From Planctomycetota bacterium (GTDB lineage Bacteria > Planctomycetota > Phycisphaerae > WQYP01), in the NCBI GenBank assembly GCA_021809365.1, contig JAKBAC010000143.1, positions 1-8,686 of the forward strand: a DNA stretch of 8,686 nucleotides. The letters are read 5' to 3'. The position numbers and the translations under genes were made by a program. Shown here piece after piece: positions 2,105 to 8,630 of the stretch (position 1 is the stretch's first letter; the number at the start of each line of letters is the position of its first letter). Below the pieces are notes generated by a model. The model saw nothing but the letters and a program-made list of their open reading frames with translations. It did not search any database and was not told the origin of the DNA.

Positions 2105-2151
2105 AACCACTCCCGGCTAGCCGCCGCAATATGCCGAATCACAATCTTCAG

Positions 2152-2168
2152 CATGTACATGTACTATA
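2152..2168 (-). promoter_or_regulatory. Possible purE -10 box with adjoining palindrome
   Basis: On the minus strand TATAGT (2163-2168) matches the -10 consensus at 5 of 6 positions, about 58 nt before the purE start. No recognisable -35 lies at normal distance. Next to it, CATGTACATG (2152-2161) is a perfect 10-bp palindrome overlapping GTACATGTAC (2155-2164). That position would suit an operator. Both calls are weak. Confidence 0.22.
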
Positions 2169-2196
2169 ACCTTTTTCACCAATCGCGGCCCGCCTT

Positions 2197-2322
2197 CCTG
2201 GGTTACAGGGGACGACGACGAGTTAGAACGCAGGAGTTGGGAGCCGACCTGGGTTACCGACCTGGGTTACAGGTGACAGGTTACAGGTGGCAGTGACAGG
2301 GTTGGGGGTTGGGAGTTAGAAG
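2197..2322. repeat. Degenerate short tandem repeats (CCTGGGTTAC and GTTGGGA heptads)
   Basis: CCTGGGTTAC occurs exactly at 2197-2206, 2248-2257 and 2261-2270. Between 2263 and 2300 the words GTTACAGG and TGACAGG recur. At 2301-2321 three adjacent heptads read GTTGGGG, GTTGGGA, GTTAGAA. The last heptad is also the one that ends the exact array at 8537-8567, which suggests that a single repeat type is scattered in the gaps. The form recalls the short tandemly repeated heptamers described in cyanobacterial genomes, but no function can be read from it. Confidence 0.6.
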
Positions 2323-2361
2323 GTTTTGGACACTGGCGCGTTCATGCCCAATGCGTCATAT

Positions 2362-2489
2362 GGGTGTGGAAATTTTTCCGGGCACCCCGCATCAACTCGA
2401 CCGGCGAGCCGCCGGGTTTATCCCGGCGGGCTTCAGCATTCCTTTGAAAAGGGGGCTTTTTTACCCCGCCCGGAAAAATTGCCACGCCC
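2362..2489. mobile_element. Miniature inverted-repeat transposable element, copy 1 (128 bp)
   Basis: The element starts GGGTGTGGAAATTTTTCCG followed by GGC (2362-2383) and ends with the reverse complement of GGGCGTGGCAATTTTTCCG followed by GGC (2468-2489); 20 of 22 positions pair. Directly outside both ends is the same 8-bp word, CGTCATAT (2354-2361 and 2490-2497), as expected of a target-site duplication made by a transposase. The 84-bp core codes for nothing recognisable and contains a strong hairpin (2407-2432) and a T-tract (2456-2462). It is non-autonomous; no transposase is in the window. Eight-bp duplications and GGG ends would suit families such as IS1595 or ISL3, and IS66 and IS256 also make duplications near this size. 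That family assignment is inference. Confidence 0.85.
2407..2432. repeat. Hairpin inside miniature element copy 1
   Basis: CCGCCGGG (2409-2416) pairs fully with CCCGGCGG (2422-2429) across a TTTAT loop. The flanking AG and CT pair as well if G2430 is bulged. A six- to seven-base T-tract follows 24 nt later (2456-2462), preceded by AAAAG-GGGG-CTTTT (2447-2459), so the plus-strand transcript could terminate there. Copy 2 has a comparable GC hairpin. Confidence 0.6.
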
Positions 2490-2515
2490 CGTCATATTAA
2501 TGTGTCATACCAAAG

Positions 2516-2544
2516 TTGGCGATCGCGCAGCGGCTGGATAGAAT
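2516..2544 (+). promoter_or_regulatory. Candidate sigma70-type promoter of the PEP-CTERM gene
   Basis: TTGGCG (2516-2521, 4 of 6 matches) is separated by 17 nt from TAGAAT (2539-2544, 5 of 6 matches). Transcription would start near 2551, leaving a leader of about 80 nt before the ATG at 2630. It lies 18 nt to the right of the transposon target duplication, so the insertion seems to have spared it. No experimental support. Confidence 0.35.
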
Positions 2545-2629
2545 GGGGGGGCGGGGTTGGCCGGTAACGGCTGCGGGAGTGACGAGGGTTTTATCTTATC
2601 TGGCCGCTTTGAGTTGAGAGGATATTTTT

Positions 2630-4324
2630 ATGATCAGGAATGGTGTGAAATTGCTGGGGATGATTTCCGCAGCGGCGCTTCTGGTGCCGGCGGGGATGGC
2701 ATTGGCGGTGGGGGCGGGGGTTGCGGATGCGGTCGTAGGCGACAATGGTCCGCCAATGGGAGTGGATATTACGTCCCATGGTGGCACGGACGCATTATCC
2801 GCCATCAGTTCCGCCGGCGCATATGGCGCGGTGGTGCAGAGCTTTACCGCCGGTACGTCCAGCAATTCCGGCTACACGCCGCCGGACACCAACGGGGCGG
2901 TGGGTCCGAACAATATTGTCCAATTGATCAACGGATATTATGGCGTCTACAGCCTGACCCCCAGCGTCAATATCAATGGTGTAGGGACGCCGCTTTTGAG
3001 CGAATCGTTATCAAACTTCTGGACTACATCGGGTGTCGCATTGCCGACGGCAAGCAGCGGATATGGCTCATTTGTCTCTGATCCGCGGGTGATTTACGAC
3101 CCGAGTTCCGGACATTGGTTTGCCAGCAGCATTGATGTGATGGAAAACAGTTCCACGGGTAAGGTAAGCCAGACGAATGATCTTCTTTTGGCGGTGTCGA
3201 GAAATTCCAATCCGCTGGACGGATTCACCGGATTTAAGGTTGGAGCCTATCAGCCGACGAACCCATCGCTGACCACCAGCGAGGCGAGTTATGGAAAGAC
3301 TTTTGCGGATTTTCCGACCCTGGGAATTACCTCGAACTATGTCACGATAGCGGCCAATAATTTCACGGTACCTAATTCCCAGAACCAGTTTGCTTCAAGC
3401 CCGGCGTATGAATCAGTGCTCGTGGTGAATAAAAGCGCCCTGACGGGTACAAATCCCACAACATCCAATTTCAATGCCAACAGCGCGCTGACGTATCAGT
3501 CCTTTAATAACTTGGGCTTTACCAATCAGCCGGTGAATGATCTAAATGCTGCGGGTAAGGCCTCGTATCTTTTTTCCAATTATGATGCGTCCGGGACCGG
3601 CGGCACGTTTACGCAGAATCTCAACGAAACGCGGATTGCGGCCGTCAGCAGTTCCGGTGGACTGGACACCAATTATGGTCTGGTGCCGTTCAACTACCAG
3701 TCCGGCGAACCGGTCAACGCCACGCAACCCGGTTCTTCGGCGACGATTGACACCAATGATGACCGTTTGAGCAGCAGTCTGACCACCGACAGCAGCGGTC
3801 ATATTTGGGGGATTCAATCGGTGTTGAACCCCACGAACAGCGGCCTGTCGGCATTGCGCTGGTTTGAAGTAGCACCGGTTTCCACGCCTGGTACCGGTAA
3901 CGCGCCGACTATTCTGGCGGAAGGCGTGATCTCGGATCCGAATAATTCACTTTATTTCGGCTCCATCGCGGTGAATTCTCTGGGCAAAGTGGTTATCGGT
4001 TTTACCGAAAGCGGAACTATGTATCCCAGCGCGTATGCCCTGATCGGGAATTTAAACGGTACGAATATCACCCTTGGCAGCCCGCTGCTGCTGCATGCGG
4101 GGCTGGCAGCTTATGGAAACTCCGGGGCCAATCGCTGGGGCGATTACAGTTCCACGTGGCTGGATCCCACGAATCCCAATATTTTCTGGACCTTTCAGGA
4201 ATATGCGATCAGTTCCAGCCAATGGGGAACGCAGATTGCGGAAATCGCGGTGCCGGAACCGGCAGCTCTGGCACTGTTTGCCGTTGGCGGTCTGCTGCTG
4301 TTGCGACGCACAAGGGCACATTAG
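2630..4324 (+). CDS. Exported PEP-CTERM protein, beta-propeller-like
   Basis: This 564-residue protein is probably exported and processed by an exosortase. Residues 1-26 form a signal peptide (basic start MIRNGVK, hydrophobic 8-22, AMALA before the likely cut). The C-terminus has the PEP-CTERM tripartite tail: VPEP (541-544), hydrophobic 545-558, then RRTR (559-562). The body has PPDTNGAVGPNNIVQ (84-98), SDPRVIYDPSSGHWFAS (150-166) and RWGDYSSTWLDPTNPNIFW (502-520). Such motifs recur in large secreted proteins that I associate with sialidase-like or beta-propeller folds; enzymatic activity cannot be claimed. It is rich in Ser, Thr, Asn and Gly and has no cysteine, which fits an extracellular protein. 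The start is set by GAGAGGA 7 nt upstream. It stands alone between two miniature elements, and its last codon and stop lie inside the target duplication of the second. No exosortase gene is in the window. Confidence 0.85.
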   Translation: MIRNGVKLLGMISAAALLVPAGMALAVGAGVADAVVGDNGPPMGVDITSHGGTDALSAISSAGAYGAVVQSFTAGTSSNSGYTPPDTNGAVGPNNIVQLINGYYGVYSLTPSVNINGVGTPLLSESLSNFWTTSGVALPTASSGYGSFVSDPRVIYDPSSGHWFASSIDVMENSSTGKVSQTNDLLLAVSRNSNPLDGFTGFKVGAYQPTNPSLTTSEASYGKTFADFPTLGITSNYVTIAANNFTVPNSQNQFASSPAYESVLVVNKSALTGTNPTTSNFNANSALTYQSFNNLGFTNQPVNDLNAAGKASYLFSNYDASGTGGTFTQNLNETRIAAVSSSGGLDTNYGLVPFNYQSGEPVNATQPGSSATIDTNDDRLSSSLTTDSSGHIWGIQSVLNPTNSGLSALRWFEVAPVSTPGTGNAPTILAEGVISDPNNSLYFGSIAVNSLGKVVIGFTESGTMYPSAYALIGNLNGTNITLGSPLLLHAGLAAYGNSGANRWGDYSSTWLDPTNPNIFWTFQEYAISSSQWGTQIAEIAVPEPAALALFAVGGLLLLRRTRAH

Positions 4325-4326
4325 CT

Positions 4327-4500
4327 GGGCGTGGCAATATTTCCGGGCAACGCGCGCCGTGCGGATAAACTTCACATAGCCGCCGGCTCTGCCGGTGGTG
4401 GAATGCACCACGTTCGCACCCCGCCGCCGCTGGACCAAACGGTGCGAGTTGCCCATGATTTCGCCGTATTTCAGTCCCGCCCGGAAAACATGCCACGTCG
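4327..4500. mobile_element. Miniature inverted-repeat transposable element, copy 2 (174 bp)
   Basis: The left end GGGCGTGGCAATATTTCCG plus GGC (4327-4348) matches the reverse complement of copy 1's right end at 21 of 22 positions. Its own right end (4479-4500) is more decayed, pairing at 17 of 22. Perfect 8-bp direct repeats CATTAGCT lie immediately outside (4319-4326 and 4501-4508). The left one contains the last codon (CAT) and the stop codon (TAG) of the PEP-CTERM gene. The core has competing hairpins: 4380-4387 with 4391-4398, GTGGTG/CACCAC at 4395-4411, and TCGCACC/GGTGCGA at 4414-4447. No transposase is encoded. The core is 46 bp longer than in copy 1 and matches it only in patches, best in the opposite orientation (GGATAAAC, GGCTC and GCCGGT words). 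Confidence 0.85.
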
Positions 4501-4573
4501 CATTAGCTGATTCGCCACGCGCTCGCTGGATATATTGGCGCTTTTGTGGGAAAATGAAAAACTAGAATCGGTT

Positions 4574-8536: not shown

Positions 8537-8564
8537 GGAGTTAGGAGTTAGGAGTTAGGAGTTA
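8537..8564 (+). repeat. Four exact GGAGTTA heptads
   Basis: GGAGTTA is repeated four times without error (8537-8543, 8544-8550, 8551-8557, 8558-8564) and is followed by GAATTTT. The perfect copies suggest recent expansion or contraction by slippage, in contrast to the decayed heptads at 2301-2321. It lies in non-coding DNA beyond the DUF58 gene. Confidence 0.9.
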
Positions 8565-8630
8565 GAATTTTCTGGAAGCGCTACCGCTTTACCATTTTGC
8601 GCGGCAGAATAAACTCGCCGGCTCGCGCCG

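Follow-up and report, generated by a model that had tools for sequence, protein, structure and literature searches.

How does a piece of DNA that is too short to hold a transposase gene come to be spread through a genome, and what decides where it lands? These questions are raised by the window analysed here, i.e., the whole stretch of 8,686 nucleotides from a Planctomycetota bacterium, which carries a segment of 128 bp at 2362-2489. A segment of this size has room for a frame of at most 42 amino acids, in which a transposase gene would not fit (the list of open reading frames, ORFs, holds those of at least 80 amino acids). Its ends are GGG...CCC, and its terminal inverted repeats (TIRs), 22 bp each, lie at 2362-2383 on the plus strand and at 2468-2489 on the minus strand, with 20 of the 22 positions paired. 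On both sides there is CGTCATAT, the target-site duplication, at 2354-2361 and, without any change, at 2490-2497. All of these elements were found where the first-pass annotation had placed them. It had read the segment, called copy 1 below, as a miniature transposable element (MITE) and had considered its structure hard to explain by chance; many copies, duplications and orthologous sites without the insert now support that reading, while the question of chance is settled by the numbers given next.

The nearest genome compared (G001; 3.9 Mb in 220 contigs, 94% complete and 5% contaminated) holds 100% of the sampled words of the window, which corresponds to the minus strand of its contig C191; the match of copy 1 there is 100%. 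When this genome was searched with the 128-bp element, 126 or more query bases were aligned in 25 copies, among them that of the window; one further copy is cut at a contig start and one is partial, so that there are about 27, or about 26 besides copy 1. The TIR pattern, at three mismatches or fewer, gave 69 + 69 matches in this genome, compared with 1 + 1 for the reversed pattern. The 8-bp flanks of the 25 copies are identical in 11 and agree at 7 or more of 8 bases in 16. On the contrary, when the left flank of one copy was paired with the right flank of another, none of 600 such pairs was identical and one agreed at 7 or more bases. Copy 1 is, therefore, far beyond chance, and the prediction that copies would share their ends and differ in their 8-bp flanks came true. 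Two pairs of copies, L002/L003 and L010/L025, have flanks in common, and these probably come from the assembly.

An empty orthologous site, with a single target and no insert, had been named as the decisive sign of insertion, and in this respect the outcome depends on the copy. At the site of copy 1, no element is present in the related genome G003 (91% identity downstream), where the target occurs once and matches at 5 of 8 bases only: G003 reads CCAATG-TGAAATAT-TAATG, against CCAATG-CGTCATAT-(element)-CGTCATAT-TAATG in the window. A further 13 bases ahead of the promoter are also missing from G003. For ten other copies, the flanks were joined and aligned to relatives, and three of the ten sites (L012, L017 and L010) are uninterrupted there, so that the sign did appear, at copies other than the one for which it had been proposed. 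The L012 site is uninterrupted in six of the seven other genomes of the genus: the junction is free of gaps nearby in G003, G005, G007 and G008, and small deletions extend over the target in G004 and G006. In G003, the junction of L017 is aligned with one gap within the target, and the target of L010 is intact, with small gaps elsewhere. No clear alignment across the junction was found in the relatives for the other seven sites tested, the L008 junction being crossed by 4-18 bases only. In G008, the L017 site holds 272 other bases (G008:C4 6392-6663, in L253) in place of the MITE, which may represent another insertion at that promoter.

Copy 1 thus has the traits of a MITE: it is short, it has TIRs and no transposase gene, it lies within an 8-bp duplication, its copies are dispersed and empty sites exist. 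It is also part of something larger. Among the loci gathered for this comparison, 121 distinct elements of 118-211 bp are bounded by the TIR, and their interiors fall into seven clusters and four singletons. Exact repeats flank them at a length of 8 bp in 53 cases, 9 in six and 7 in one, with none at lengths 5, 6 or 10; mismatched pairs drawn from the same 121 elements agree at 8/8 in 5 of 14,520. Judged by sequence, one TIR that bounds several different interiors is best described as a MITE superfamily. Copy 1 is assigned to its subfamily A (126-131 bp), which has members in G001, G004 and G023. As for the hosts, the TIR (up to two mismatches) occurs in 24 of the 25 genomes of the bacterial family, some of them with a single match, and in one of 16 genomes of other families, the reversed control being found in none of the 41. 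At least 89 TIR stretches are present in named genomes, all of them labelled Planctomycetota, Phycisphaerae, Phycisphaerales or Phycisphaera. No description of the MITE was found in the literature searched, mostly by way of listings, with ISfinder and most subscription journals beyond reach; the accessible parts of PMC3733652 and PMC9208149 describe no such element.

The interior of copy 1 contains a palindrome, AGCCGCCGGGTTTATCCCGGCGGGCT, at 2407-2432. In G001, 27 of its 29 matches (three mismatches or fewer) are inside subfamily A copies, so that the palindrome as a free mobile repeat is unsupported in this genome. The other two are in contig C132, where a cluster of partial matches to the palindrome extends over 11315-12336, outside any listed MITE.

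The window holds a second element, which the first-pass annotation had also listed and which is likewise real: copy 2, of 174 bp, at 4327-4500, between CATTAGCT at 4319-4326 and CATTAGCT at 4501-4508. Its arms are paired at 17 of 22 positions and its interior differs from that of copy 1, grouping instead with a cluster of 172-185 bp; for these reasons it is placed, with its related ends, in another subfamily (B). Copy 2 is not present in G003. Its left duplication includes the TAG stop (4322-4324) of an ORF of 564 amino acids (2630-4324, plus strand, from the ORF list), which is downstream of the predicted promoter of copy 1 and ends in what we take to be a PEP-CTERM-like tail. Counterparts of this ORF exist in G003 and in G004 (there on a different contig), while the alignments of G004, G005, G006 and G008 run from about 2126 to 4521 of the window without it. 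It appears to be a gene gained or lost beside MITE sites. Elsewhere between genes, the window has short degenerate direct repeats at 2195-2310 and 8540-8576 (CCTGGGTTACAGG; GGAGTTAGGAGTTAG).

What, then, decides where these elements land? Beyond copy 1, a -35/-10 scan predicts a -35 box, TTGGCG (2516-2521, plus strand), that starts at base 27 from the edge of the element, and, after a spacer of 17, a -10 box, TAGAAT (2539-2544, plus strand). The promoters considered here are all predicted, with E. coli-like weights of our own choice and a cut-off score of 8. Copy 2 is followed at offset 27 by a weak predicted promoter, TGGATA-17-GAAAAT (4527-4555, plus strand), whose score of 7.5 is below the cut-off; a higher score, 9.4, occurs at offset 7. 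The same spacing emerges with no motif assumed: when 143 outer flanks, taken from 72 elements, were pooled, the bases that stood out, counted from the edge, were T (28), G (29) and A (51), and a larger pool was enriched in T27, T28, G29, T50 and A51. The scan of 152 flanks from 77 sites gave 37 matches at offsets 26-28 and at most three at each other offset. Offsets 26-28 were picked after the motif-free enrichment and this first scan, and the tests on other sites are a group of new elements and a set with decayed duplications. Of 37 new elements fetched, 19 with duplications under 6/8 were set aside; the other 18 (35 flanks), scanned with offset and cut-off fixed, have 10 matches at 26-28, whereas the offsets outside 25-29 average 0.1 each; offsets 29-33 hold 6 matches altogether. 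In the decayed-duplication set, unused in the earlier scans, the promoter is at 26-28 in 26 of 60 sites, some pairs of which may have wrong edges or a common flank.

With the flanks of the first scan and of the 18 new elements pooled (187 from 95 sites), there are 47 matches at offsets 26-28 compared with 2.09 expected, a count in which adjacent offsets of one flank may both figure (Poisson P 5e-46), and any single offset outside 24-30 has three at most. Counted by site, the promoter is at offsets 26-28 in 41 of 95, copy 1 included; in 54 no promoter reaches the cut-off of 8 at these offsets, and at a cut-off of 7 there is none in 47. The sites were deduplicated by 12 + 12 flanking bases, and an insertion common to two species could count twice. 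A control offset of 56-58 was occupied in one of 92 sites (duplication of at least 6, both flanks). The signal is spread over sizes, with 15/31 sites at 126-132 bp, 10/24 at 170-185, 10/23 at 137-144, 3/4 at 151-163, 1/3 above 185 and 1/7 at 118-119 bp; it is present in 11 of 24 subfamily A copies of G001, a list that leaves out L002, L025 and L027. Of the 42 flanks on the promoter side, 39 lead to an ORF start, compared with 66 of the 113 flanks that score below 4. As for the source of these promoters, both boxes beyond copy 1 are identical in G003, which has no element there, and the promoter region of L017 is retained where its site is empty; these promoters were therefore not brought by the element. 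Insertion appears to be non-random, at a nearly fixed distance ahead of predicted promoters. The edge of the element lies near -62 of the predicted promoter, and the footprint of RNA polymerase ends just downstream of about this position.

Does such a distance necessarily reflect the act of insertion? The MITE could have inserted at random, and selection could have retained the copies that help, or spare, the downstream gene. Selection may indeed contribute to the avoidance of long open frames, as 23 of 63 sites are in an open stretch of at least 150 codons compared with 84% of 1260 random points. For the spacing itself this is an improbable account: an offset shared by so many matches at 26-28 is too sharp, and the frequency of the promoter is no higher as the duplication decays (28/61 at 8/8, 12/31 at 6-7 and 26/60 at fewer). 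Also, both orientations occur (9 and 7 in subfamily A), three of six insertion sequences have the same promoter offset, and PMC3942029 describes promoter targeting by related transposases. Against targeting stand the low share in the 118-119-bp class and, beside insertion sequences of other lineages, further promoter-like matches at offsets 33 (L237), 34 (L208) and 36 (L190).

Another question is which enzyme moves a MITE that encodes none. A candidate is provided by G025, a genome of a related genus, in which an insertion sequence of 1566 bp (L175 1749-3314) has GGGCGTGGCAATTTTTTCGGGC as both TIRs and TTTTTGAA as its duplication (8/8); among the loci gathered at that stage, it was the sole TIR pair bounding a stretch of insertion-sequence size with a perfect duplication. 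Its TIR is identical to the right arm of the MITE at 21 of 22 positions and to the left arm at 19 of 22, and beyond the TIR the two have little in common. The second of its two ORFs (ORF2, L175 2088-3287, 399 amino acids) matches the ISKra4 model NF033572 at 145.5 bits (E 2.5e-42), or at 148.9 bits with both ORFs read together; the NCBI cut-off of 205 is not reached, and for this reason the partner is called only "ISKra4-type". The transposase also has a UPF0236 domain (PF06782, 34.7 bits; cut-off 24.3), and at E 1e-10 it has homologues in 22 of the 41 genomes; against a protein database, E 1e-20 was reached by 2945 of 7540 candidate proteins. ORF1 (L175 1859-2122) lies upstream of ORF2 and overlaps it. 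By three-frame translation and the ORF lists, ORF2 is +1 (or -2) to ORF1 at a TTTTTCCCCC run in L175, where the run occupies 2077-2086, and in L208; such a run is at the overlap in 14 of 18 loci inspected, L175 among them, and the others are 23-83% identical to L175. The run and the +1 relation suggest programmed +1 frameshifting or transcriptional slippage, and not the -1 shift reported for ISMich2.

The ISKra4 family is characterized by GGG ends and duplications of 8-9 bp, and the partner has both. In the ISKra4-type elements, the duplication is exact at 8 bp in L175, L237 and L238 and at 9 bp in L190, and it agrees at 8/9 in L208. The G025 element is the autonomous relative with common ends that a MITE is expected to have; an intact version was not seen in G001. 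At the DNA level, only a 33-base end of it was matched in this draft (40 of 81 candidates scored), and at E 1e-10 or better G001 gave one ISKra4-type hit, a 1589-bp insertion sequence in contig C44 (L237) with the duplication TCTAATTT (8/8). It is ruled out as a likely driver, as its TIR agrees with that of the MITE at 13 of 22 positions only. With such ends in C44, the MITE of G001 is probably the orphan of a driver that is lost, rare or unassembled. L237 has a 1589-bp counterpart in G003:C34 (L238), also ISKra4-type, with other ends than the MITE and an exact 8-bp duplication; the duplications differ between the two genomes, so that these are apparently independent insertions.

It could also be argued that another family moves the MITE, the likeness to ISKra4-type ends being a coincidence. 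IS1595, ISL3 and IS256 types all leave 8-bp duplications, and the ISKra4-type search found no close matching insertion sequence in the very draft, G001, that is rich in copies. Yet the coincidence would have to include the 21 end positions common to the MITE and the G025 element, the end of a G018 element that matches the TIR pattern of the MITE with no mismatch, and the agreement of MITE and ISKra4-type elements in duplication length and promoter offset. MITE-like ends, moreover, adjoin ISKra4-type genes or remnants in five genomes: they occur in G025 itself, beside homologous transposase genes in G024, G018 and G012, and in G004. In this last genome, which belongs to the same genus as the window, what is left of a G025-like element is a 141-bp end. 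A mover of another family is therefore quite unlikely. As to a folded RNA gene or a family of REP-like palindromes spread in some other way, the fold of copy 1 (z-score -5.4), its internal palindrome, a weak Rfam match to anti-hemB (22.8 bits, below the gathering score of 49.5, so that this identity is rejected) and the REPs reported for Planctomycetes in the accessible part of PMC3733652 lend it some colour, but it is contradicted by the 8-bp duplications and the empty sites and is hardly credible. The strong predicted fold is due to the inverted repeats and the internal palindrome, and since the same ends enclose different interiors across subfamilies, it is the ends, and not the fold, that are conserved.

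With good confidence, although from sequence comparison, we regard copy 1 of the window as a non-autonomous MITE whose mover, acting in trans, is a DDE transposase of the Mutator-like, ISKra4 type; this enzyme would generate the 8-bp duplication and insert just upstream of sigma70-type promoters. Both the identity of the mover and the cause of the spacing, namely docking of the transposase complex on promoter-bound RNA polymerase, are what we infer. The transposase would recognise the ends of the MITE, which would itself retain nothing but these cis-acting ends; its complex would dock on the polymerase, as the accessible part of PMC3942029 proposes for TnGBS. Insertion would then produce a staggered duplication of 8 bp, with the -35 box beginning about 26 bp beyond the edge of the element. 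The inserted element would abut the polymerase footprint on its upstream side, and the promoter would remain undamaged. Near-symmetric ends would explain why both orientations occur, again in line with PMC3942029.

How does this compare with known systems? Other bacterial MITEs, such as RUP, NEMIS and Nezha, have other ends, other duplication lengths and other transposase families, and we know of no promoter-spaced insertion for them. The resemblance, based on the accessible part of PMC3733652, lies in their size (70-300 bp), their TIRs of 15-30 bp, the absence of coding capacity, a frequent position beside genes and the possibility of being moved by transposases that recognise the TIRs. The accessible part of PMC3942029 reports that ISKra4-group, ISLre2 and TnGBS elements target promoters at 13-17 bp, that 13 insertion sequences of the ISKra4 group insert upstream of sigmaA promoters, with the promoter on either side, and that Planctomycetes are among the hosts of p-MULT 4. 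With the ISKra4 family, or p-MULT 4, the present system has in common the transposase match of the partner, the near-perfect inverted repeats and the insertion upstream of promoters; the window element differs in having no transposase. The spacing differs too: 13-17 bp from the junction of inverted repeat and genome in the ISKra4 group of that source, and here, if counted alike, 26 bp from the edge of the inverted repeat, or 18 bp beyond the duplication. The gap between 26 bp and the published 13-17 bp might amount to one turn of the helix, or it might come from the way of counting. The ISMich2 group of PMC3942029 has two ORFs, as does the partner, with a -1 frameshift in the former and a +1 relation in the latter; the partner would hence unite traits that the accessible part of this source assigns to separate groups, promoter targeting to the ISKra4 group and two ORFs to the ISMich2 group. 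TnGBS and ISLre2 (p-MULT 3 in PMC3942029) also integrate ahead of sigmaA promoters with a constant spacing, the counterpart here being predicted promoters at 41/95 sites. They do so, according to the same part of that source, at 15-17 bp, in one orientation bar one exception and with their own transposase, whereas the MITEs here are tiny and occur in both orientations. No report of a promoter-targeted MITE was found in the literature searched, the published cases in the accessible part of PMC3942029 being ISKra4-group, ISLre2 and TnGBS elements.

What goes beyond the first-pass annotation is the different interior of copy 2, the ISKra4-type insertion sequence whose ends almost match, and the constant spacing between the insertions and the predicted promoters downstream. 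A MITE that is an orphan is here connected with a type of transposase, and the findings suggest that delivery to promoters is retained by an element which is hardly more than its two ends. Somewhat more tentatively, and with slightly less than even credit, it can be proposed that a gene-free transposon superfamily lands on promoter-bound RNA polymerase, displaced upstream by about one turn of the helix compared with its relatives in PMC3942029. The ability of a transposase to find promoters would become testable with short synthetic substrates, and the edges of MITEs would hint, from sequence only, at the positions of promoters in uncultured Planctomycetota. If the superfamily does land in this way, such MITEs would, in many genes, time and again exchange the DNA that lies beyond about position -60, and they would be natural markers of active promoters in these uncultured bacteria.
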